Assembly: GCA_947044365.1 (NCBI GenBank) | Contig: OX345636.1 | Location: 62,300,537 to 62,364,536, forward strand | From: Petrosia ficiformis | Lineage: Eukaryota; Porifera; Demospongiae; Haplosclerida; Petrosiidae | Reading direction: 5' to 3' | Length of the DNA stretch: 64,000 nt | The notes under the pieces: generated by a model | Databases searched by the model: none | Told to the model about the DNA's origin: nothing | The model's input: only the letters and a program-made list of their open reading frames with translations | Position numbers and translations under genes: made by a program | Shown: positions 6,089 to 60,600 of the stretch, piece by piece | Layout: each line of letters opens with the position of its first letter | Position numbering within the stretch: position 1 is the first letter of the stretch

Positions 6089-7964
6089 TCACTGTTCTCC
6101 AACACTCCCACTTGATTTATCAGTTTGAATAGTGGTTGGTAACAATTCTAGTCCCATTAAATTTCGTAACATTTCAAATCGATCATGATGAAGTGGCTTT
6201 GTGAGCAGGTAAGCAAGCATTTGCTCCGTTGGACAATATTCTAAAGTAACATATCCATCAAGGATTGTTTCACGTATATAGTGGTATTTAATATCGATGT
6301 GTTTGGTACGAGAATAAGAAACGGGATTTCTTGCTATTGCAATTGTCCTTTGATTGTCCTCTTTTATAACTGTTGGTGCTTCTTGATGGAGTTTGAAATC
6401 ACTTAGTAATCGTCTTAACCAAACACCTTCTTGTGTGGCACCACTTAAAGATATATATTCTGCTTCTGCAGTTGATAAGGACACTGTAGGTTGCTTCTTG
6501 CTGTACCAGCTCACTGGACATCCAGCAAATAGAAATAGATTACCACTTGCATCTGAGTATCCTACTAGAGTACCACTTTCTGACTTTTTGTATTTCAGTC
6601 CTAAGTTAATGGTCTCCATTAAGTATCTTAAGATCCTCTTTACCGCTGTTAAGTGAGCTTCACTTGGATTTGAGCAATACTTTGATGATGCTCCTACAGC
6701 TTGGGAGATGTCGGGACGAGTGGCTATAGCTGCATACAAGAGGCTTCCGACCATAGACTGGTACAGTGTAGAATCTACCAATATGCTGGTTTCATCATCC
6801 TTTCTGAGCTTTACATTAAGATTAGCAGGCGTTGGCACAGTCTTAGCTTGTGACAATCCAAACTTTTCTAACATTGCTAAGATATATGGCCTCTGATGTA
6901 ACCACAAGGACCTCCTGCTCTCATCATACTCAACTGTTATTCCAAGACAGTGATGCAATTTTCCTAGGTCTTTCATTTTGAATCTTGATGTTAGGCTTCT
7001 TTTTATTTCATTGATCTTCTCAGTTGTCTTGGTAGCAATTATCAGAACATCTACATATACAGCAACTATCATAATCTCTCTCCAGATTCTTCTGTCTTAG
7101 TGAAAATACACGGATCTGCAGTACTCTGTTTGAAATTAGCTGATTTCATATGCTCTTTAAATGCCTTGTTCCAACACCTAGGGGATTGTTTTAGTCCATA
7201 CAATGATTTCTTTAACTTGCAAACCATATCTTCCTTTCCTGGTTGGACATATCCTGCCGGTTGTTGCATAATTATATATCTCTTCTTCAAGTGTCCCATT
7301 CAGGAAAGCTGTCACAACATTCATTTGATGTATTAGCATATCGTTCTGTATGGCATATGCTAACAGGGTTCAAATCGAGGAATAATGTACAACTGGTGCA
7401 AAGGTTTCTTCATAATTGATTCCATATCTTTGAGCAAATCCCTTTGCCACCAAACGAGCTTTATATCTCTTTATATCACCATCACTTCCTTTCTTAACTT
7501 TAAAAATCCATTTACATTCAATCAGCTTTCGACGTTCTGGTAAATCGACCAATTCCCAAGTATTATTCTCCATTAATGATTCATATTCAGCATTAGCTGC
7601 TGCACTCCAATTTTCACTGACAAATGCTTCTTCTATATATACTTTCAGGTTCTACAACTTCATTCACCATTGCAGCTTCCACATATTCATCCACTCCAAA
7701 CCTAACTGGAGGATGTCTCTGCCTTGTTGACTGACATATCTCTCCCACTGGTTCAATGCCATTCTCATCAGAATCTACTGGAATCTCTCCTTGAACATTC
7801 ACCTTAGATGGGATAACTGGCTCTGTTTCAGTATTATTTACACAAAAATCATTTTCATTAAAGACCACATCTCTGCTTATCACAACTTTGGTGGTTTTCT
7901 CGTTGACCAACCTATAACCTTTGGAGTTGAGGCTATAACCAACAAATCTAAACTTCTCAGCCAT
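6089..7964 (-). mobile_element. Broken Ty1/copia-type retrotransposon (pol 3' half)
   Basis: Minus-strand order: integrase-RT linker (7964-7614), RT N-terminus with WKWIF-like [20 protein letters not shown] (7573-7370), RT middle with LKKSLYGLKQSPRCWNKAF (7299-7069), then RT end plus RNase H (7072-6089). The RT box reads VYVDVLIIA where copia elements have YVDD, so the second catalytic Asp is replaced by Val. The RNase H region has GYSDASGN directly joined to LFLFAGCPVSW, lacking the usual intervening residues, but keeps STAEAEYISL and KHIDIKYHYIRE. Three frame breaks separate the blocks; gag, protease and the integrase core are absent. Dead, 5'-truncated copy. Confidence 0.9.
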
Positions 7965-32022: not shown

Positions 32023-35000
32023 GACGAAAACAGGTTTAAATTTCCATTGCAGTGCACTGTAATATGCAGTTTGACTTTACTATTTATCATCTCATTTTCG
32101 TACACATTTATTGCGTATTTCTCATCTGAAAAGAAGGAACTTGAGGTATGTTATGCATGTGCAGTGTTATTTTAAGACAGTTCTATTTTATAATGTGACT
32201 ATACATAACTACATACAGTTGTTGCTAGTCATGATTAGGAGCAGCATACTATAGTTTTACCATTAACTGTTAATTTTGATTAAAATAATATCTTGAAAAT
32301 AGACAATTTGTATCATTATGATCATTCACAAATGAGTAAGTTAGTTTTGAATAATAAACAGCCTTTTTACCATCTTCATACAATTGTCCTCCGTAGTTAA
32401 GTCATTCCCGGGGGCTCGGTCAATTAATGGGCTTAGTGCGTAATAGAACGTGCGCTCGAACTCAGCAGACTTACATAGAATTAGAAACTGGAACAATACT
32501 AGCAAACTATTCTACCTGAAATATATTTCTAAAATTCTACAAACTTCTTTAAAAGGTAAACAGAGTAGATAATCAAAATAATAACTATAACAGGCTGATG
32601 TGTTTCAGACATTCATAAAGTTAGCCATGATTACTGAATGCTGGACACCACAAAGCACTAATAGCAATACTTTTTTCTCTATATATCTTGTTTTTCCTAT
32701 ACTGTAATATTTACAAATCATGCACAGTTCATTTGATCTATATACACTGCAAAAACTAAATTGTTAAAATAACCATTTTATTGGTTAGTACAGTTGCAAG
32801 GAATAGCATGAGTTTAAATTTAGATTGTCAGTTGTCATAGAGGATGTTGTGGCTTCATTCATGTATGTTACTACGACATAGTGTGTACCATGTATTGAAA
32901 GATATAAATTAAATTATGTGTTTACAGATTTACAACTCCATTTCATGCCCAGATACATTTACATGTACTTTAGTATAAACTATACTAAATCTTTGACATG
33001 AAATACGAGTAGACAGCACCTTAAAATTGTATAGCTTCAATTGTTATTGAATATAATTAGTACAAAGTATCTATGGTATTATATGTATTTATCATGAGTA
33101 ACAAACTAATTGTTAAATCCTTGCAACTGTACTAACCACTAAATTAGTTATTTTAACTATTTTGTTTTTGCAGTGTATTGACTAATATCTATATATATAT
33201 ATATATATATATGTCATAATAAGGAATAATTTGGTAACAATGTATTAATACAATGTAGCTATATATTTAAAGATACAACATGTGGTGTATTATTTGTATT
33301 AAATGTAGCATCTGTGAAAACAAAAGATGTTACAAGCTCATTTGATTAATTAGTATGTACATGAATTTGTACACATGGACTACAATTAACATGTGATGTA
33401 ATCCACAGATATTTGAAAAATTAGCATGTCACATTGTATTATATTTGTTACCATTCTTTATTATGGCATGTACTTTGTATACTAGTCAATATAGATCAAA
33501 ATCAAAAGAAAGAAATTACTACTTGTGTAAGCATTACCTAGCTAGACAAAAAAAGCAGCATTGATTTGTTAAGTCTCAGAGGAATTGAAACTCATGTAAC
33601 AAAAGAAGGGTTAAAACAGTCCATTCATGTATGGTTAGTAGGAGGTCTCTATCATTTTTTAGCCTAGGTTTTGGGTGTTTCTAGTTTCATAGTGACTCTC
33701 AGCATTGTAGAAATGCAACTAGAAACATCTTCAATTGCAGATCTGATAAAGGAGATAAAGATATGCCTACAATACATGTACTTCAAATATTGCATACATT
33801 TTTGTTATATTTAGCTATAATTATTATTATTTATTTATATATTATAAAAAATAATATAATTATAGTAATTAAAATTAATTATATAATTTAGGGGTGGGAT
33901 GATTAATCAATTGATTAATCAATTAATCAATCAGTATTGAAAATTCCTATGATTATCGGTTATATGTCTGTGATATAAATTATGCTAAATATTCCAAAAT
34001 ACGTACTTTTCAGGCACGCAACATATATAATAGTAATTATAATTTACATAACAATTATTATAATTATATATTACTTAAGCTTAAAGTAGCATAGTGCTGC
34101 TTTCAATGCATCCTTTGTGTACAGGTATACTACAGATTATATATCCTAGTATATCATTTTTATGGATCATATTCGTGGCTGTCATGTTTTGGAAGTTAGT
34201 ATTTCCAAGTAACTCACTTCGGTATCGTTATTTGGACAAATGGATTCATGCTTTAACACCTTTAATCAGTGAGCACAATTATTATACAAATTCCATTTAT
34301 ATATAACTGGTGGCAATAGTAGATTATATTCTAATTGACATGATAGATACTAAATACAGAATTCAGTACGTTTTTTTTTTAAATCTGGATGAATTATAAT
34401 CCTTGCATTCATCTAATATCAAAGCTATCAATCATAATTCTGTTTTTTTTATAGTCATCATCTTCGTATTACCGTATATTTTGATTATAACCACTAATGG
34501 AGACTTCTTTCCCATTCAAAATGACTTTCCATCACTCGGTTGTGTATCAAGAAATGGTTTCTTTAACTTCAGCTACATAATCTTTCCTGCAATATTTCTC
34601 TGCAGTCTTGGTATGTTCCTTTTGATGATTATACTCTTTCGTCTACAAATGGTAAATAATTGTAACTGCACAAATTATTAAGTACAAATTAGTATTGTAT
34701 AGCTCTGTTTAAATGTGTATTTTAATATACTTTTTTGCATTTGCTATGCAGAGGTATGGCTGCTCTATATAAAGAAAAGATACTGTTATAAATACAGCAG
34801 AAAAGAAGATACTTTTGCTTTTATTTACAGTGGGTTGTGTGGCTACAATTAATGGAGTAAACAACACGATTAGACTACACACAAAAACTAAACATCAAAC
34901 AGTTTTTACACACATGTCCAACCACCCCACAGACAGTTAACTGTCCGGTGTACAATCCAAAGTTACTAAGGATTACCAGGGATGGCATTACCCTACCCTA

Positions 35001-38000
35001 GGATAATTCTTGGATCCCCTCACATGTTACCCACCAACCCCTCTGTCAGTGTCCCTGGATGTTGGTGTTACACTGACTGTCCTAGGATAATCCTAGGATC
35101 ACCTCACATGTTAGCCTCAAAACCCCTCTGTCAGAGTATCCCGGGATGTTGGTGTTACACTGACTGTCCTAGAATAATCCTAGGATCCCCTCACATGTTA
35201 CCCAACCCACCAACCCCTCTGTCAGAGTATCCTGGGATGTTGGTGTTACACTGACTGTCCTAGGATAATCCTAGGATTCCCTCACATGTTACCCAGTACC
35301 CACCGACCCCTCTGTCAGAGTATCCTGGGATGTTGGTGTTACACTGACTGTCCTAGGATAATCCTCACATGTTACCCAACCCACCAACCCCTCTGTCAGA
35401 GTATCCTGGGATGTTGGTGTTACACTGACTATCCTATATAGGATAATCCTAGGATCCCCTCACATGTTAGCCACAAACCCCTCTGTCAGAGTATCCTGGG
35501 ATGTTGGTGTTACACTGACTGTCCTAGGATAATCCTAGGATTCCCTCACATGTTACCCAGTACCCACCGACCCCTCTGTCAGAGTATCCTGGGATGTTGG
35601 TGTTACACTGACTGTCCTAGGATAATCCTCACATGTTACCCAACCCACCAACCCCTCTGTCAGAGTATCCTGGGATGTTGGTGTTACACTGACTATCCTA
35701 GGATAATCCTAGGATCCCCTCACATGTTAGCCACAAACCCCTCTGTCAGAGTATCCCGGGATGTTGGTGTTACACTGACTGTCCTAGGATAATCCTAGGA
35801 TTCCCTCACATGTTACCCAGTACCCACCGACCCCTCTGTCAGAGTATCCTGGGATGTTGGTGTTACACTGACTGTCCTAGTATAATCCTCACATGTAACC
35901 CAACCCACCAACCCCTCTGTCAGAGTATCCTGGGATGTTGGTGTTACACTGACTATCCTAGGATAATCCTAGGATCCCCTCACATGTTAGCCACAAACCC
36001 CTCTGTCAGAGTATCCCGGGATGTTGGTGTTACACTGACTGTCCTAGAATCCCCTCACATGTTACCCACCTGTATAGTTATGATACTAATAATAAGGAGG
36101 GAAAAATATTCAAAATTCCCAATAGTACTGATGAGTATAACAATATAATTGTAGTCATAGAATAATGTGTGAAGAACGTTGATAGAATAAAATGTAACAT
36201 AATGAAGTACATGTCTAATCAAAGTAACCCAATCAGTTTATGCAGTCTTCCTTGGAGATCTGCGGACAGGTGTTTCATTGCCTGTACTTGGCCTTTTTCG
36301 TGATCTGACACTAGTACTACATTTTTAAGAAAGAAAAAAGATCTGATCTGATAAAAAGATCATATTTTTTAGGACATACATGTACATATGCCCTCACTTG
36401 AAACTTGATTTTGTATACTTTTTAATAATTAATTGAAAATATGCACTGGTGATATACATATGTATAGCAAACGTATATAGGTAGCAGGAACAACATTATA
36501 GAGCTCATCTTGTTTAGCATATGAAAATTCTTTCATGGTGTGGAGCATTGAAATTGCTTAATGTCTACTCACATAGTTATATCATCCATGTTGATTGCTG
36601 ATTCGTACTGGCTGATAGAGATACTAAATGGTAGCAGCTTTTCCATAAGGTCTTTCTTATCAATTACCTCCTCAGGGATATCTGCCTTTTGGAATTGGTA
36701 CATCTGTATGTATGATAACAGTACATGAACTTCTACAAATGTTTCTTTGGTGAAATGTGAAGAGTACAACTTAACAGTATATGATGAATGAGATATAATT
36801 ATGGTTGATGCTGTGGTCAGGTTTAACACTCAATCCTTTAGGAATAGTATAAACCAACTATGCACTTGCTTGGTGCTAAAGTTACAGCAGTTTGTCACCT
36901 TGATATTTTAGCTTGGTCAAATATCTTGGCACCAAACAGCATTGACATTAGCACCTTGGAGTGTAAATTTGCTGAATACACTTCAAAGCTATGGTTTACC
37001 TTACCAAATTAACATAATTATACATACATGTATAATATACATGTATGTATACACACAAATGGGTATTTACTTATATGCACACAAAGACACATAATACCTT
37101 GCCCAACACAGGCAAAAGTTAATAACATCTTTAATGTACTAAACATACTATGCTTGTCCCTCTCTGTGGTTTAATCTCAATTACTTTACCAAGCCCAGTT
37201 TCTTCTAGCAACCGAAAAGCACGAATGGCTCCTTCTTTATTTCCCTTGTCTCGGAATTTCCTCATCTCTAATAATGCATTTAAATGTAGTGTCTTCCCTG
37301 GCAGGAGAAGAGAAAATGCAGCATTCCTCTGGACCTGTCCACCTGAATGGGTATCAACATCTGAAGATTCTAGAATGTATCATTGGTGATATAATTAAGC
37401 TGAAAGGGGAAATGAACATACCCATAGTAATGGTAGAAACAGCTTCTTCAACATTCCCTCGACCAGCAATGTATGCTGCATGTTGAATACACATATCTAC
37501 GAAATTTTCTGCTGCCTTGATAGCACTTTCAGAGATAGTGTCTGGTATTACCAGAGGTTGATTTATATAGTGCAACACATGGAGAGTTGCTACCACTCTT
37601 AGAATCTGACCACGTGACTTGCTAAGCATACCTATGTAGTAAAATTGAAAATCAGCCTATATATAGGTGAATATTAATTGCCATTAAGTACAAGTACAGA
37701 GATGTCCAAGTTTGCTATCAAAGACTAAGATATTTCATTGAACCCTAACCCTACACTAAATCAACCACAAATTGTAATAAATGATTTACTAACAGGGATA
37801 ATTACATACACATATTGTACCTCTTGTACATGTAGATTACATGTAAAAGTAGTGACTTTACCAGATAAAAAGTCATCCATACATGACAACTTTTGAAGAA
37901 GATCTTGTACATCGTCATACTTCTTTCTAAACACCTCACATGGTTTGGATATCACCCATTTTCTCACACTGCTATTATCAGACCAGAGTGCAGCCATTAA

Positions 38001-41000
38001 CCCAACTAGAAAAAAATTAATAGTAAAGTAAAATAATTATCACAGGTAATGTGTAAATATCTCACTTATAGATGTTGAAAATTCCTTATTAACTTTCTGT
38101 AACATATCAAAAGGAATCTGCATTGGTTTTGGAACAACCCAAAGAAGTCTCTGAGTAAATCCTTTTTCCACATTGGTTTGTTGTTCAATAAGAGACCGGG
38201 CGACACTTGGCTGTGTAAAGCCACCAATAGTCAACCCAGTGTACTTCATTTCAAAGTTTGCTTCACCAGACACTGTGTACACGATTTATCATACATATAC
38301 ATCATTACAGTATAGCTTTGCTTACCTGTTTTCCTAACCCATGGATTTGCTCCATACAGTTGTAGAAAAACAGCTAGCTCATGGGAGTCTGACAAACCTT
38401 TTCCACGGAACACGTTAATTTGCGTTAGAAACATTGGTAGCTCATCATATAGGCCAAGAAGTTTTGAATGATTAGCGTGCATTAGAGCTCCCATTTTCTC
38501 AAAACTCTGATCGTCCAAGAACCAAGAAGGAGATTCATCATTTGTGCTCATTGCATGAACATCCTCGACAATTTGCCTTAGCCATTTACAAAGAGAAGAT
38601 TTTCCACTACCTGTTGGCATACAGACTGATATCCACAGCAGAATTGGTTCTAGCCAATCTGTATTTTCAACTTCCACAACTGCATGGGACATAGCAAAGC
38701 TCACTATGAGAAGAATACCTGCCAGCACTGCAGTAGCTGGCATGCTTAGAGCTTGTCCTACTTGGTGGCATCCCTATGAATTGAAAAGTTGTGGTCAAAA
38801 CAACTTGATAAAGTGCATTGTTTAAAAACAACTGCAATCTAATTGCTAATAAATAGTATTGCTTACTTCATTCAATTGTCTTGGTAACAATTCCCAGTTT
38901 AAGTCATGCTCCCAACATTCTTTGAGTCTGGTAGAGAGTTGCACAGAAGCAGCCCTGTTTCTGGCAGTAGCAGCTGGAGATGAAGTCATAGAAGCCATCT
39001 CCAACACTTTCTATACATGTGTTCACACTTGCAGCATGTGTTCACACTTCCACCGCACATGCTCAATAAATGTGTGTTCATACATGTACTTTCATTTTGA
39101 GAACTAGGAATGTTAGAGCTCTTGGGAAAGTGCATTTCGGATGTCTCTGTACTTCGGAAGCTGATCTTTGCTGCTGTGTTTCTTCCTCCTGATATTCCTA
39201 ATCTATGGACTATTGCATTAGAGTTTGCTACAGCCGGAACAATATCACAAAAATGCATTACTCCTGATGTAGTTAAAGCACTTATGGAAAACATACAGAC
39301 CTTCAATGCAACTGCCTTTGATAGCGATGAGAAACTGTTCAGAGAGATAGTTACTCTAGACATTCCTGGAAAACCACTTGGTGTTCCACTTATCAGCGAT
39401 AACACAGTTTGTCTACTTTGTGGCAATAGCCTTTGTTTGAGGAATGACCGTCATTCTTCTGTTGTCATTTATGATGACAACCATGGTGCAATTCCAGGTT
39501 CTCATTTCCACAAGTATTGCTCAGAACGTTCATGCTGCTTTACTCAGTTTTATGGCTACTACACCAAAGGTGAAGGAAAAAGTATAGTTTTGTTTAATTC
39601 TGATTGGCATACTTTACCCTACTTTGTCACGTCGTGTGAGACAGCTTTCGCAATGGAATTTTTACGACGGTTGGATATGGAAATTCTGATTGGTCAGCTC
39701 AGTTTCAAACAAAGAGCAGAGATCTTCAATAGTGTTCATACTCCAAGCATTGCTGATATGGGGAGGTAAGATTGTATTACTGATGAGATTAAATAAATTA
39801 CTTTCTTACACATTCTAAGCATTAGTGAAGAATTAAATCGGAGGTTGAAACTAGATCGCAGACGCCTTGAGGAAGCATTTTTCCAACATGCTCTCCTACG
39901 GGTTGCATCCTGGTACCCAATCAGTTTTCCCATTAATGAACTACAACTTCAAGGTGGTTTGACAAATACCTTGCTGAAAGCTACACCTGTTTTTCACAAG
40001 ATTTTCATGAAACACTACTCAGGTATGATTGTGTTGTAGTTTTTGTTTTTAGCCACCTTACATATGAATGTTTCATAGAGCATCATTGCAGAGTAAATGG
40101 CTGCTCAGAAGTTTTAGTTTTAGATGGTAACATGAAAAACCACAGGGATGTGTGTTTTGCGACATGTGCTGGATATACAGAGTTTGATGGTCTCCCTGGA
40201 AAGATCATGTCTGGGTGCCCAAATACACCTGACTTTAAATCCCCTTTCTGCTCCCTTCATAAAGCGACTGCAGTTATTCCACAGGAGGTTGACAGTCAAC
40301 AATTGGTTATGGACAGGTCAGCTGACTCCAATGTGGAGACTCCAGCTGCCATGATACTAGGTAAACGATCAACACGACACTCAAACTTTTATCAGGTATG
40401 AATCCCAATGGAAGTGAAAATGTATACCACTATAATTATATACAAGTGAAAAGTTTCTTTGAGTTTAATTTTGTTGTGGAATGTTAGGTTGTTTGGCTTG
40501 GAAAATCGTTAGCTGAAAACAGCTGGGAGCCTGAGTCATCTCTTCCTAAGGAACTTGTTACTCAATATGAAGAAGGAATCATGCGTGAAGTTATTGATGA
40601 TAATTTTGCTTCTGGCTACCAGATCATCCACACACTCTCCTCTGCAGTAATTCAACATACTGATGAGCCACAGGAAAAGCGACCAAGAATGGACAAATCA
40701 TTTTCACCACATTCAACAGGGTTAACTGAAGTAACTGAATAGTATAGAATCGTTACTATTATCTCGTTTTCTACAACAGGGCTTTTGTATCAAATGACAT
40801 GGAGAGCCATTCTTTGAAATGCAACACAGAGAAGGACAAGCACATAAAGTTAAATTACAAGACAGCAGGTAACATGTTTTACAACTGTAAGGAGTTGTGC
40901 TGTCCCACTATTCAAATACAAATATACAATGCAGGCATTTTAGCAGCAGGCCTTGTGGTACTGTTACATTAATCGGAGAACTATATGGTGCAGAGTCCAA

Positions 41001-42476
41001 ATCACAAGTCTATGGATTAACACATGGATTTCTATACAATAATCAAAAGTCTACAAAAGATCTAAGTACGTTTAACATAATTATTACAGCATAACTGTTA
41101 GCGGTATTTTTCATTAGAAATCATCTGCTATGATGATGGTTGTCACCTACTGAAGTATGCAGCTAATAAATGTCGTAGTAATCTAACTGAGACTGCAACT
41201 CGACTATCTAATATGAAAATTGTCATCGATAGGATGCATTTCAAAGGGCACATTGACCAATGGTGCCGGGAGAACTGCAATCCTGACTCTGTTAAAGAGC
41301 TACAGGATGTAAGTACAACATAATTATTTTAGCTCAGCTGTGATTTTGATGTTTGTTCCTTATCTAGGTTAACACAGAAATCTGTGAACAAACCTTTGCA
41401 TGGCTTTCACAATATGCTAAAATAACTCGCCGGATGAACAGACAGCACTTCTTATTTTATATATTATATCTTTGCGAATTGCGAAATAGGCACAAGGCGT
41501 GTTAATAATATTATATTCTGTATGACATCACTGAGCACTTTCCATGCACATGTGTAATGATAATATTTATACATAATTATAAGAATATAATTATATATAT
41601 TATTTCAAAATAGCTGCATTGATAGGTTCAAGTTGAAGTTTACGCATCATAATCAGTGTTATTAACTTATTATCATTGCTATTATCCTCATTTATCATTT
41701 TCAACAAGCTGTAGCTGTATACCATGATACTCTGACAGAGGGGTTGGTGGTTAACATGTGAGGGGATCCTAGGTAACATGTGAGGTGATCCTAGGATTAT
41801 CCTAGGAGAGTCAGTGTAACACCAACATCCAGGGATACTCTGACAGAGGGGTTGGTGGGTAACATGTGAGGTGATCCTAGGATTATCCTAGGACAGTCAG
41901 TGTAACAACAACATCCAGGGATACTCTGACAGAGGGGTTGGTGGGTAACATGTGAGGTGATCCTAGGATTATCCTAGGAGAGTCAGTGTAACACCAACAT
42001 CCAGGGATACTCTGACAGAGGGGTTGGTGGGTAACATGTGAGGTGATCCTAGGATTATCCTAGGACAGTCAGTGTAACACCAACATCCAGGGATACTCTG
42101 ACATAGGGTTGGTGGGTAACATGTGAGGGGATTCAAGGACTATCTTAGGGTAGGGTAATGCCATCCCTGGTAATCCTTAGTAACTTTGGATTGTACACCG
42201 GACAATTGACTGTCTGCGGGGTGGTTGGACAAGGCTCAGTTTTTAAGCACTACATGTTATGTGAATTATCGGGATACAGTATAAACAGTAGGAGTGATGA
42301 TACTACATGTAGTAAAGATGAATTAGAGACATACAATTATGTTTGGCTTGTCTGTTACATCCAGCATATTCACTTTTATATTCCTACCATTGCTATTTCT
42401 ACTTGTGATGATTGAGTGGCGACGTTTGATACGATGGATGAAAGTGTCATTTCAAATGAAAAAACAACAGCTATAA
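32023..42476 (+). CDS. Frizzled/Smoothened-like seven-TM receptor fragment
   Basis: Exons by splice site and phase: 32023-32144, 34136-34268, 34455-34651, 42327-42476. The first begins DENRFKFPLQ, like the charged loop after TM1 in class F receptors, then a TM (LTLLFIISFSYTFIAYF). The second gives FLWIIFVAVMFWKLVFP; the third FVLPYILIITT...GCVSRNG and IIFPAIFLCSLGMFLLMIIL; the last FTFIFLPLLFLLVMIEWRRL then KKQQL and stop. Such receptors bind Wnt-type ligands at the plasma membrane. The CRD and TM1 are not in the window, an exon around TM2-3 may be missing, and TM7 is not visible, so it may be partial or pseudogenised. Its third intron contains the 7.3-kb transposon. Confidence 0.6.
32745..33175. 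mobile_element. MITE with 60-bp TIRs in a receptor intron
   Basis: Ends CACTGCAAAAAC and GTTTTTGCAGTG, with arms continuing (GTTAAAATAAC, GGTTAGTACAGTTGCAAGGA and complement). TA flanks both sides. No coding; superfamily uncertain. Confidence 0.85.
34975..36065 (+). repeat. Left subterminal minisatellite
   Basis: About 12 units of roughly 80-95 bp: CTCTGTCAGAGTATCC, GGGATGTTGGTGTTACACTG, ACTGTCCTAGGATAATCCTA, then CACATGTTACCC. The palindrome CCTAGGATAATCCTAGG recurs in most units. Open frames across it are artefacts. Confidence 0.95.
36238..38998 (-). CDS. DUF3987-like P-loop ATPase in the transposon
   Basis: Exons: 38998-38867 (ATG, MASMTSSPAATARNRAAS), 38773-38326, 38272-38066, 38005-37862, 37631-37422, 37369-37149, about 36826-36573, 36310-36238. 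The second carries Walker A (MPTGSGKSSLCKWL) and Walker B-like LLGLYDELPMFL; the third GLTIGGFTQPSVARSLIEQQ and GFTQRLLWVVPKP, as in DUF3987 primase-helicase-related ATPases. The last exon is basic (VRSRKRPSTGNETPVRRSPR), NLS-like. About 560 residues, no stop seen; only the exon 6-7 phase is unresolved. Shares a 110-bp divergent promoter with the transposase, so a role in replication or excision of the element is inferred. Confidence 0.72.
38999..39109. promoter_or_regulatory. Divergent promoter between ATPase and transposase
   Basis: Only 111 bp separate the two ATGs. It contains two direct copies of ATGTGTTCACACTT and two GT-rich half-sites (ATGTGTG, ACATGT). No TATA box seen. Confidence 0.5.
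39110..41505 (+). CDS. KDZ-superfamily transposase with CxC and chromo-like parts
   Basis: Exons: 39110-39765, 39820-40022, 40079-40395, 40488-40720, 40780-40868, 40935-41065, 41118-41308, 41368-41505. Exon 1 holds a cysteine cluster (NTVCLLCGNSLCLR, HKYCSERSCCF). Exon 3 has VLVLDGNMKNHRDVC, the first catalytic Asp, then GLPGKIMSGCPNTPDFKSPF with CSLH. A chromo-like stretch follows (VVWLGKSLAENSWEPESSLP). Exon 7 gives IICYDDGCHLLKYA (second Asp) and VIDRMHFKGHIDQWC; exon 8 NTEICEQTFAWLSQYAKITR (Glu). This D-D-E layout fits the Kyakuja-Dileera-Zisupton group. One base appears lost near 40947 (AGILAA to RPCGTV), so this copy may be inactive. N-terminal start uncertain. Confidence 0.78.
41735..42135 (-). 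repeat. Right subterminal minisatellite
   Basis: About five units of the same sequence as the left array, in inverted orientation, part of the long TIR. Confidence 0.95.
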
Positions 42477-42536
42477 TGAAATGAGACTTGTCAAATTACT
42501 AGAACAGAGTTCTTTATTTTTGTTAGCTATATATAT

Positions 42537-43194: not shown

Positions 43195-43840
43195 TACTTA
43201 TATAGAGGCTTATATGTGGTTACTAGGGACATTTCATGTTAGAATATAGTAATATAATTATATAGAGGCTTATATGTGGTTGCTAGGGACATTTCATGCT
43301 AGAATATAGTGATATAATTACCTAGTTATATAGAGGCTTATATGTGGTTACTAGAGACATTTGATGTTAGAATAATTATAGTGATATAATTACCTCGCTA
43401 TATAGAGGCTTATCCGAGGTTGCTAGGGATATTTCATAATAGAATATAGTGATATAAATAGAGGCTTATATGTGGTTGCTAGGAACATTTCATGTGAGAA
43501 TATAGTGATATAATTAGAGGCTTATATGTGGTTGCTAGGGACATTTCATGTGAGAATATAGTTATATCATTACCTAGTTATATAGAGGCTTATATGTGGT
43601 TGCTAGGGACATTTCATGCTAGATATAATTAGAGGCTTATATGTGGTTGCTAAGGACATTTCATGTTAGAATATAGTGATATAATTACCTAGTTATACAG
43701 AGGCTTATATTTGGTTGCTAAGGACATTTCATGTTAGAATATAGTGATATAATTACCTAGTTATATAATGGCTTATATTTGGTTGCTAGCAACATTTCAT
43801 GATAAAATAATTATACTGATATAATTACCTAGTTATATGA
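43195..43840 (+). repeat. Minisatellite, about 10 units of 50-75 bp
   Basis: Units contain AGGCTTATATGTGGTTGCTA, GGGACATTTCATGTTAGAAT and ATAGTGATATAATTACCTAG. Two more units lie at 44740-44865, beyond an insertion. Confidence 0.95.
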
Positions 43841-53481: not shown

Positions 53482-54990
53482 GGAGTAAGTACCAACTTAT
53501 CCAAGTCTGAGTTAAGAAATCTATTTAATATTGGTATAAATGGTAAATGTTGGCGTATTATTGAAAGCTAGTACACTGCAGCATATAGTAGGATTCATGT
53601 GGATGGTGCAATATCCAACCCTTACCTTATATCCAGAGGTGTTAAACAAGGATCTGTTTTGTCCCCAATATTATTCTTAATTGTCATTGACCCACTGCTT
53701 AAAACCTTGAGAGATAATAATGCTGGATTATCTGTATATGGTACGTATATTGGTGGTGCTGCCCATGCTGATGATCTTCGCACTGCTACTGCCACTAAGA
53801 ATTCTATTATTCAACAGGTCGCATCATTGAAGAATTCACTTCAGCCAATCACTTAAAGCTCAATTCATCCAAAACTGAAATAATTAAAATTTCTCGTAAT
53901 TTCCCAGATCCAGAACCTATTCAAGTATCGAATTGGGACGTGACAACCGTAGCAAGTGCTAAATGTTTAGGCGTCTGGTGGCAGTTTAATCTATCTGCTT
54001 TGAGAGCCGTTCAAGAAAATATCAGTAAAGCTAGAAGAGCCTTTTTTGCACTTGGCGAAATTGGTGCATTTCAGGGTAGTTTAAACCCGTTATCTGCCAG
54101 TAGTATTTATGAATCTTGTGTTATTTCCATCTGGTTATATGGCTGTGAAACATGGCTATTGGATTCATCTTGTATTCTTTTACTTGATCAATTTCAGTAC
54201 GAAATCGGCCGTCGCATACTAAAATTACCAAAGCACTTTTCTGGTCATGTTGTCAGAATTTGTTTATGTTGGCCTTCTATGTCATCTCGAATATTAGCTC
54301 GTAAATTGAGTTTTCTCGCCAAATTATTGCAATCTGAGAAGAGTACATTAAGCTCACAAATGTTCACCTCGGTAGCTATTATTGATGCCTATGATGTTTC
54401 AATTATCCAACAGTGCAGGATGCTGGAATCCAACATTGGTACTAGTGTTCTAAAGTTATGTTTGGAATGTCCAGAGGATGCTATTTCAATTGTTCGCTCT
54501 GAGAAATCTAACATATTTGATAGAGATATTGTTAACCTTATCACCTCTTCACTTACCCACCCATCCGCTCACTTAGTGGCTTCAGTTGCACAAAGTGTTT
54601 CCTGGTATCGTTTATGGGATTTGGCTTTGGATAGAGGAGTGCGAGGTACCAATCAACTGCAACGAATTGTATACCACTTAAGTCGTCCAATTTTTTCGAA
54701 TTTCTCGTGTCCTTTATGTGATACTACCTTGACTCCGACAACAACATGGCTATCACATCTCTGCAACTCTCACTCAATTACAAATGGCCCCATTCATCTG
54801 TCTGTTGAGGAAGTAATTTATGCCCTTAAAAGTGAAAGTGTGGACACTATCTTTAACCTTTATTTTCCTACATAATTCTTAATTATTATCATTAATTTTA
54901 TTAATATTAGCGTAATTATTATTCTGTTTGTTTAATTTATGTGCTATACTCTGTGAGTCTTGCATTAATAACCTTTGAACCTTTGAACCT
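53482..54990 (+). mobile_element. 5'-truncated LINE with one frameshift
   Basis: RT motifs: LFNIGINGKCWRIIES (with stop at 53571), SRGVKQGSVLSPILFLIVID, then AHADDLRT, the catalytic box with His in place of the usual Tyr/Phe. A frame change near 53815-53830 separates this from LKLNSSKTEIIKISRN and ASAKCLGVWW. The remaining 311-codon frame runs through SIWLYGCETWLLDSS to a terminal zinc finger CPLCDTTL...WLSHLCNSH. The 3' end carries a (ACCTTTGA)n-type tail (54970-54990). Endonuclease absent; element inactive. Confidence 0.88.
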
Positions 54991-57638: not shown

Positions 57639-60600
57639 TTATAATATACCAGCAGTGTCAGTTTCATCCTTCATCCTCCTCACAATAGTATCAAGACAAC
57701 GCTCTTTTTCCATTACCTCTAGTACCACATCCAGCATATCAGGATTATCATGAACAGCCTTTTCTACACGGATAAGAAGAGTATCGGCTTCTTTGTTCTT
57801 GTGACAGACATCATCTTTGGTGTTAGTATTAATGATTCCTCTAGCTAAAAGGCCACCTGCTAGAGAGAATAGATTCGCCTCATTTTCTTTACTATTTAAT
57901 ACACAGCACATGTCATTCTTGTGGCGTCGTACAACACTATCAGATGTAACAGGCTCTGATGGCAATCTTGGGATTCCTACGATTAAACAAAAGAATTTGC
58001 ATATAATTTAAAGAGTTTATAATTATGTACCACATATTCATACCATTCAAATAGATTGAACCCACTAATGATTCATAATGAAGTGCAGTGTGAACATCTT
58101 TGACGGTGTCGTATGTCAACCCAACAATGTGACTTATTGAACGATCCTTCTCCTTCAGATTTTTACACAGCGTTTTACTCCAAATTCTTGTAGTGGCTTC
58201 TCTTTGTAGAACAATGGTTACAAAGCATGCAACAAGAGACCGAACTGGTGCATTTAGATTTAGAATGTTCTCTTGGAGAGCAACAGGTGTCAACGAATCA
58301 CATTTGTCATCAGACTCAATGTTGGTAGAAAGATTTGCTGGACTCTTACTCAAACAAGAATCGAAAAAGAATAAGCAAGATGGGCGATTTTTTTTTTCAT
58401 TGAATGGAGAAAGAATGTTCTCTTTGATATCTAATATCCCCATTTCATTACTTGGTTCTGGTACTAAAAATAGACACTTAGATTTATTGACACCTACGTG
58501 TCCAGCATAGTAAAACACAATATATTTATAGGTGGGAGGGTATTGCACTTTAACAGCTGCTTTCACCAAACAAGCTATTTTAGAGCAAGTTGTTTCTCTC
58601 TTGCTCCAGACAGCAAAACTCAAATCGTTTTCAAATGTCGAGGATAAATCGTGAACATCAGTCCCATCTGGGAACCCAATCAGAAAAGCAATTCCCTGAG
58701 CATTTGGTTTATCAGAACACCGTTGGTTGATCTTGATCTTCATTTTCTCCAGTTTCTCAGTACTGACATTAAAGGCACCTGTATATTGAAGCAAAGTAAT
58801 AATGTATTAATTTTACTGAAACAAATGAACTTGTAATTAAACCACATGCTAAATAGAAATGTTATGAAAAATTATAAACATTACAACACATATAATTTGA
58901 TAAAAGTACTCTTACCTTGCTGAGGCTCTTCTGGTTTTGATGGATCAAACTGTTCATCAGTCTCCACTTCTAAAAGAAATTGTTATATTTAATTATAACA
59001 AGACAAAATAGAGAGAAAATGTATTCCTTTGATTGCTTTATGGTGTCATCATTAACATTCTCATGTCTGGAAAACAATTAATATTCATTTGATTATCCAT
59101 ACTGTTTACTATTCCAGGTCTTGTGTAATTTTTACAGCCCATTTTAGCTACAGAAGCTATTACTTGCTGTTTGTCTAGTTACTTCTAGCTGCTTCTTCTG
59201 TAGGCTGTACTATAATGCAAGTGTCGAGTGATTAAAGACAAAACTTCCTTATCTATACATCAACACAGTGGAAAGCAATCATAGCGATAGCCTTGCAGAT
59301 CATTAAAATTATAACTATTACTAGATATTAGTAACATTTAAAATATTATGTAATTGTGTAGACATTCTATTTACAAAATATCATTACATAAGTCTATCAT
59401 GTAATTTATCTGCACATAGTTATTTGAGAATATGAATATTTACATGCTCAACTTACTGAGGTATTGTTTAGTAATTTCATCTGCAATTTCCTCCTCTCCT
59501 AGAAGTGGACTTCTTAGAGCTTCTACAAGTGTTGACCAATATGCCTGACCAGTATTAATCCAGCACTCTAGCATAGCATGTTGGCATTCCTGTGATGAGT
59601 AGTGACTATGTTGAATGCTTTCCAGTATTCCATCATGTATTCCAAGCATTAGACCCACAGCTTTCCATTCCACTAAAGATATTGCTTTCAATTCTTCCAG
59701 ATTAGCTTCTATATCATTAATTGTAGTGCATAAAGAGTGAACATTTATGTTTTCATATAAACTGACCAGTTAACTTTTTATCATTTTGAGTTACTAACAC
59801 CTTTACATGGACTCTTGAGAGTTGTCCTTCATGATCTATGAAGGAAAGTAACAAAATATTTTTTGAAAATATATTATAGTAATATTGATTTCTGTTCAGC
59901 TAACTAAAATACACACTTCTGAAATGTGTAGAGGATGATTAACATACCATTTTCAATTTTCTTTGCTAATTCTTCCTCGTTAAGTACTTCACTTTTTAAA
60001 GCACGTACAAGTGCCCCCCAAGATGCTCCAACATCTGTAATCCAAAATCTCATCAAATGATAATGGCGTTGAAGTATTGAGTGGTGTGTCTGAGATATTT
60101 CAGTTAGTTTAGTACGATCTAAGCCAAGTGCTATTCCGAGTTCTTCCCATTGTCGTTGAACTTCTGCAGTGGCTTCTAGCACCTCACAAAGACTGTCAAC
60201 TGAAATTTAATTCAATAACTTATTACATTCCTCCAATCAAATGCAATTTAATAATTACCTGACAATTGTTTTGATTTCTTTGTTTGTTCCTCCAACTGAG
60301 AGAGTAGTTTTACCTTCTCCTCCTCCAATTGTCGAGCCAATCCACTATTTTGGTCTAAGTTAAATGAAGATATGAAATTTAAAAGATTTTAATTTCAATA
60401 TTCATGTGTATTTTATATATTAGGTTTATAATCATGTATGAATACATGCAGTCTATTTTGATATACCTGTGAGTCGTTGGATTTCCTTCTGTTTTTCCTC
60501 TAATGTAGCGAGTAACTCATTTTTCTTAATCTCAATCTGTTGTTTCCCTTCCTCTAGTTGATTGACCATTTTTCTTGTTTCTCCTTCAGCACTAATACAC

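Follow-up and report, generated by a model that had tools for sequence, protein, structure and literature searches.

A KDZ-type transposon of the sponge Petrosia ficiformis that encodes a DUF3987-family ATPase beside its transposase

Structure of the element and its target site

The DNA analysed here (the window, 64,000 nucleotides) is the forward strand of contig OX345636.1 (C1) of Petrosia ficiformis, between positions 62,300,537 and 62,364,536 of assembly GCA_947044365.1; the genome searched comprised 191 Mb in 29 contigs. The window contained a transposon of 7329 bp, spanning 34909–42237, which was bounded by terminal inverted repeats (TIRs) and a target-site duplication (TSD) and which encoded a KDZ transposase and, divergently from it, an ATPase of the DUF3987 family. 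Both gene models consist of predicted exons, the splice sites having been inferred from the DNA. The features of the element, with the basis for each, are as follows.

34901–34908, no strand: left TSD, AGTTTTTA, 8 bp (copy comparison and empty sites)
34909–35040, + strand: left TIR, outermost CACACATGTCC (pairing with the right end; ends compared across copies)
34999–36068, no strand: left subterminal minisatellite, unit of 92 nt in 12 copies, spaced 81–93 (repeat search)
36238–38998, − strand: DUF3987 ATPase gene, 8 predicted exons, 523 amino acids (7 introns, all GT-AG, and an open frame; Pfam)
38998–38867, 38773–38326, 38272–38066 and 38005–37862, − strand: ATPase exons 1–4 (predicted)
37631–37422, 37369–37149, 36703–36573 and 36316–36238, − strand: ATPase exons 5–8 (predicted)
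37149–37369, − strand: ATPase exon 6, conserved C-terminal region (weak helix-helix-strand-strand prediction on the matching part of a relative)
38999–39109, no strand: 111 bp separating the start codons, presumably a promoter used by both genes (promoter role inferred)
39110–41505, + strand: KDZ transposase gene, 8 predicted exons, stop codon 41503–41505 (Pfam KDZ; motifs shared with the relatives P0006 and P0007)
40354–40574, + strand: chromodomain interrupted by an intron and lying between the transposase's two Asp motifs (Pfam Chromo, amino acids 379–421)
40935–40955, + strand: start of transposase exon 6, frame broken (4 bp shorter than in copies L017 and L019)
41726–42149, no strand: right subterminal minisatellite with a period of 86 bp, in inverted orientation with respect to the left array (repeat search)
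42106–42237, − strand: right TIR, outermost, read inward, GAGCCTTGTCC (end pairing and copy comparison)
42238–42245, no strand: right TSD, AGTTTTTA, 8 bp (copy comparison and empty sites)

The terminal sequence of the element was 5′-CACACATGTCC..GGACAAGGCTC-3′, with ends of the form CA..TC. The inverted ends paired over 126 bp at 94% identity (34915–35040 with 42106–42231) and passed into inverted repeat arrays, in agreement with the initial annotation of this DNA, which had described long inverted ends made partly of minisatellite. That annotation also reported a 9-bp direct repeat, CAGTTTTTA, at the ends; this proved to be the 8-bp TSD AGTTTTTA together with the final base of the element, a C. 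Its two divergent spliced genes were recovered as predictions with 111 bp between their start codons, and Pfam identified their products, as it had proposed, as a KDZ transposase (E = 1.7e-9) and a DUF3987-like ATPase (E = 1.3e-26). The element had further been called complete, which is correct of its structure but not of its coding capacity, as exon 6 of the transposase is frameshifted in the window copy.

The outermost bases of the two ends were unlike (CACACATGTCC on the left against GAGCCTTGTCC on the right, read inward), and this asymmetry was kept across the copies compared. Small variants were found at the ends, with GAGCATT on the right of L019, L026 and L027, a one-base difference on the left of L019, L021, L026 and L027, and variation at both ends of L025. 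A perfect 8-bp TSD flanked 7 of 9 independent insertions (the window group, L019, L022, L023, L024, L025 and L026); the TSD was imperfect at L020/L021 (4/8, counted as one insertion) and at L027 (6/8). Judged by eye, the 7 perfect TSDs had no obvious common motif except A+T richness in most of them.

A search with the left flank listed 44 matches in the genome, the best being on C1 (mostly 45.5–45.7 Mb) and others on C5. The paralogous loci examined among these listed matches were all empty (6 of 6): the two flanks, joined through a single repeat copy, aligned to them unbroken, with 1 to 5 gap positions in 326–328 columns and 88–98% identity. The best of them, L043, contained an identical single copy of AGTTTTTA. 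The window copy thus represents a genuine insertion, made into a locus that is itself repeated. The DNA that hosts it (window 34300–34908 and 42246–42500) is a member of a repeated, coding-looking family, for which a Pfam scan of the flank frame gave a sub-threshold match only.

The transposase and ATPase genes

The transposase, of approximately 650 amino acids, matched Pfam KDZ (PF18758) at 38.1 bits against a cut-off of 26.6, and its relatives P0006 and P0007 did so at 42.9 and 50.3 bits. A match of its N-terminal part to CxC5 (E = 1.3e-5, 25.8 bits) fell 1.1 bits below the cut-off of 26.9, which was exceeded by P0006 (41.2 bits), a protein 47% identical to the window transposase over its whole length. 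The motifs VLDGNMK, YDDGCH and EICEQ were common to the window transposase, P0006 and P0007, and DGNMK, YDDGCH and CEQ may contain the D-D-E catalytic residues of a KDZ transposase. The chromodomain matched Pfam in the window transposase (E = 9.4e-6, 25.9 bits against a cut-off of 25.1) and was below the cut-off in P0006 (E = 6.2e-5, 23.3 bits) and P0007 (E = 0.03, 14.7 bits). The 4-bp shortening of exon 6, with loss of the frame, was present in both the window copy and L018, and L017 had a stop codon in exon 1 of the transposase. The window copy is structurally complete but probably inactive.

Exon 2 of the ATPase gene encoded a P-loop, MPTGSGKS, and a Walker-B-like sequence, LLGLYDEL. The match to DUF3987 (PF13148) reached 94.1 bits against a cut-off of 27, with its best stretch at residues 126–366 and the P-loop just before it; in a Pfam scan of the 523-amino-acid protein this was the only domain above the cut-off, and no primase domain was matched. 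MPTG..K and YDEL were unchanged in 6 of 6 aligned ATPases (the window protein plus five relatives, of which Dysidea avara supplied two). The two proteins of this sponge were the only named relatives returned by the protein search. PHROG 2373, annotated as a DNA helicase, matched the Dysidea relative P0001 (E = 1.1e-17) and also P0002. The accessible part of PMC5862659 predicts a helicase function in mobile elements for DUF3987, which in prokaryotes is fused to primases. Taken with the PHROG match, this prediction points to a helicase-like ATPase, for which strand separation would be a property expected at the level of the family.

The C-terminal tail of the ATPase was basic, and the C-terminus of a relative was modelled, weakly, as helix-helix-strand-strand; the C-terminus of the ATPase is compatible with a winged helix and could possibly bind DNA. 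A scan for bacterial-type promoters gave no match, which has no bearing on the presumed promoter role of the 111-bp stretch.

Copies of the element in the genome

The left 2 kb of the element had 55 DNA matches in the genome, and 11 further places were examined for copies, with a threshold of E 1e-3 for ATPase matches. Both genes were found at 3 of the 11 (L017, L018 and L019), and remnants of both at L025. L017 and L018, each of them partly deleted or interrupted, are segmental duplicates of one insertion with the window copy, because the flanks of the window copy on both sides are common to all three. L019, which also has both genes, arose by a separate insertion and was 92% and 87% identical to the window in two long aligned blocks.

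Five of the 11 places (L020–L024) had pieces of the transposase and no ATPase match at this threshold, and the short copies L026 and L027 matched neither gene. The initial annotation had held that copies without the ATPase would speak against a two-gene family. Among the 11 places, only L020–L024, L026 and L027 are of this kind; they are 0.3–5.4 kb in length, most or all of their transposase is missing too, and they resemble non-autonomous derivatives. L020–L024 combined the ends of this family with a diverged transposase piece (27–51% identical, mostly exons 3–4) beside a near-identical piece of the last exon, and look like hybrids of two families. L020 and L021 lie approximately 37 kb apart on C2 with both flanks in common and no TSD, and represent a duplicated, rearranged insertion.

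Pairing of ATPase and transposase genes

Searches of the whole genome, the match lists of which are lower bounds, gave at least 83 exon matches to the ATPase, forming 38 clusters, and at least 91 to the transposase, forming 42 clusters. A transposase cluster was present within 1.2 kb of 13 of the 38 ATPase clusters, where 0.08 would be expected under uniform placement, an estimate that ignores the clustering of repeats. Of these 13 pairs, three belong to the window insertion with its segmental duplicates. The pairs found at 42.65 and 43.05 Mb on C1 have equal spacing and may be duplicates of each other. Local searches of neighbourhoods, which took in all but 6 of the clusters not paired in these lists, added six pairs (L030, L034, L050, L051, L052 and L053), so that 19 of the 38 ATPase clusters were paired.

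The two genes were divergent (head to head) at 18 of the 19 paired loci; at L011 (G000:C7:1969861-1972483) alone they were in tandem on one strand, which may reflect a rearrangement or a fusion. At L011, L040, L041 and L042 the divergence from the window was similar for both proteins, with 44–53% identity in the ATPase (over 312, 240, 50 and 93 compared positions, respectively) and 42–51% in the transposase. The pairing of ATPase and transposase is not due to chance. The two-component family suggested by the initial annotation is supported: one set of ends encloses both genes in the window insertion and again in L019, remnants of both persist in L025, and half of the ATPase loci (19/38) are paired. 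The other possibility it had named, a single-copy ATPase gene outside TIRs, was not what we found, although no transposase match was seen at 13 ATPase loci.

Selection on the two genes

Alignment of the window copy with L019 showed 25 synonymous and 20 non-synonymous changes in 522 codons of the ATPase (dN/dS 0.22), and 34 synonymous and 33 non-synonymous changes in 639 codons of the transposase (dN/dS 0.25). A binomial test against neutrality, for few non-synonymous changes, gave P = 1.2e-6 for the ATPase and P = 1.3e-7 for the transposase. Between the window insertion and L019, purifying selection has acted on both genes.

The transposase showed no constraint between the window and its segmental duplicates (1 synonymous and 7 non-synonymous changes for L018; 3 and 11, plus a stop codon, for L017), as would be expected of dead copies. 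The ATPase does not look neutral in the same comparison (7 synonymous and 4 non-synonymous changes for L018; 7 and 9 for L017). Its dS to the duplicates (0.022 for L018 and 0.029 for L017) was higher than that of the transposase (0.002 and 0.007, respectively). The higher ATPase dS in L018 suggests gene conversion or recombination between copies.

Subterminal repeat arrays

A minisatellite with a period of 64–87 bp was located within approximately 1 kb of the end of the transposase gene in 14 of the 17 paired loci examined, the exceptions being L052, L030 and L011 (in L011 the transposase end lies outside the locus examined). The period was 86 bp in the window family (window/L019), L041 and L042. 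The window repeat units had no demonstrable similarity to those of L041 or L042 and were similar to those of L050 and L053. Such constant spacing with altered sequence suggests a lattice for protein binding. Of the 13 ATPase loci at which no transposase was matched, 6 likewise had arrays with a period of 55–110 bp, as did other parts of the window; the presence of an array by itself therefore proves little.

In the two diverged families represented by L042 (3431–4137) and L041 (3269–3764), the 86-bp arrays were directly behind the transposase. A further minisatellite was found just outside the element in the window (43258–43837), with a period of about 47–115 in overlapping rows.

Comparison with known systems

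Zisupton has a TSD of 8 bp according to the accessible text of PMC12730594. The present element resembles Zisupton/KDZ elements in its Pfam KDZ match, its CxC5 match just under the cut-off, its multi-exon gene, its TIRs and its 8-bp TSD; it differs in having a chromodomain within a transposase of approximately 650 amino acids and a DUF3987 ATPase as second gene. The same text describes fungal KDZ elements in which TET/JBP dioxygenase genes are linked to the transposase, so that a linked second gene is common to both, the gene being a dioxygenase there and a DUF3987 ATPase here. It also describes two fungal Kyakuja families with a 7-bp TSD, CA..TG ends and no TIRs; on this description a fungal-type Kyakuja identity was ruled out by the 8-bp TSD, long TIRs and CA..TC ends of the present element. 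In the portions of the open-licence literature available, no report was found that a KDZ element carries a DUF3987 ATPase or that a KDZ transposase contains a chromodomain.

AcademH DNA transposons encoding a helicase were reportedly described by Kojima in 2020. A helicase in this Academ lineage is also noted, by citation, in the accessible part of PMC10045372. AcademH is alike in being a eukaryotic transposon that encodes a helicase, but belongs, by its description there, to another superfamily with a TSD of 9 or 10 bp.

The PrimQH and All3500 primase families, as presented in the accessible part of PMC5862659, share with the ATPase the DUF3987 domain and a P-loop ATPase, and most PrimQH proteins have a winged-helix domain at their end. 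Unlike them, the ATPase of the present element is encoded beside a KDZ transposase, both genes having introns. Identity as a PrimQH-type replication protein was rejected on the Pfam scan, which found no primase domain. Bacterial IS21 (IstB), Tn7 (TnsC) and phage Mu (MuB) likewise combine a transposase with a dedicated ATPase partner (PMC11208146, available part); their helpers are AAA+ proteins, whereas that of the present element is of the DUF3987 family.

Possible role of the ATPase

We consider it reasonably probable that these elements form a KDZ lineage with two functional genes, the second encoding a helicase-like ATPase that would be needed for mobility. The transposase would make the cuts and the 8-bp-staggered insertion. 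The ATPase would bind the subterminal repeat arrays and remodel or unwind the ends so that the transposase could pair them; alternatively, it might act in copying the element after excision. The chromodomain may bias the choice of target, and the shorter copies with intact ends and no full genes would have been moved in trans.

Two sets of loci weigh against this proposal. No transposase match was found around 13 ATPase clusters (L010/L038, L028, L029, L031, L032, L033, L036, L039, L049, L055, L056, L057 and L058), of which several were examined on one side only and many are fragments. Conversely, 29 of the 42 transposase clusters had no ATPase match within 5 kb. Most of these are fragments: 22 match only from residue 485 onwards, four are the copies L020, L022, L023 and L024, and exons before that point were matched in the other three. 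ATPase-free relatives that retain an entire transposase may exist.

The ATPase could instead be accessory cargo, selected for something besides the transposition reaction, such as escape from silencing, in the manner of the fungal TET/JBP genes. Co-occurrence and selection cannot separate a transposition factor from useful cargo, and accessory genes are carried by fungal KDZ elements (accessible text of PMC12730594 and PMC12477816). This explanation is possible but rather doubtful: the ATPase belongs to a family of predicted replication-type helicases, and the head-to-head layout, kept across families that are ~50% identical, is a better fit to a core function. In addition, the other KDZ matches in the genome (at least 15 at 10 places) coincide with no listed ATPase match, as compared by eye in lists that are lower bounds.

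A more specific form of replication role, which we regard as unlikely, is that the ATPase loads on the 86-bp arrays, which would act like plasmid iterons, and unwinds the element, transposition then being replicative or proceeding via an amplified extrachromosomal copy. If this were true, the 86-bp spacing in window/L019, L041 and L042 would be the footprint of a protein lattice.

It is less likely still that the ATPase chooses targets or activates the transposase in the manner of TnsC, MuB or IstB, with ATP-bound oligomers on target DNA recruiting the transposase and switching it on. Many bacterial transposases need a dedicated ATPase (PMC11208146, in the part available), and the chromodomain of the transposase hints at targeted integration; however, the sequence family is DUF3987/helicase (set apart without direct profile comparison to IstB, TnsC and MuB), and the perfect TSDs lack an obvious motif by eye beyond their A+T richness.

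Chance capture or nesting, in which a host or foreign ATPase gene was inserted into one KDZ element and then copied, is highly improbable: 3 of the 4 two-gene copies examined (window, L017 and L018) are indeed one insertion spread by segmental duplication, but as a full account it is contradicted by the independent two-gene insertion L019, the pair also occurs in diverged families, and the ATPase is under purifying selection.

From the sequence evidence we favour an ATPase that would act as a motor on the element's own ends over a TnsC/IstB-like target-choosing helper and over pure cargo. If the ATPase is required, KDZ elements would be a eukaryotic setting for testing the division of labour between motor protein and transposase. 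They would also provide a handle on the purpose of the long subterminal repeat arrays and on how an ATPase of phage or plasmid replication type entered a mobile element of animal type.

Other open frames in the window

Outside the element, the window contained long open frames at 6089–7096 (− strand), 53799–54875 (+ strand) and 57940–58806 (− strand). By eye, we take these to encode the end of a Copia-type polyprotein, the end of a LINE-type reverse transcriptase and a caspase-like domain, respectively.

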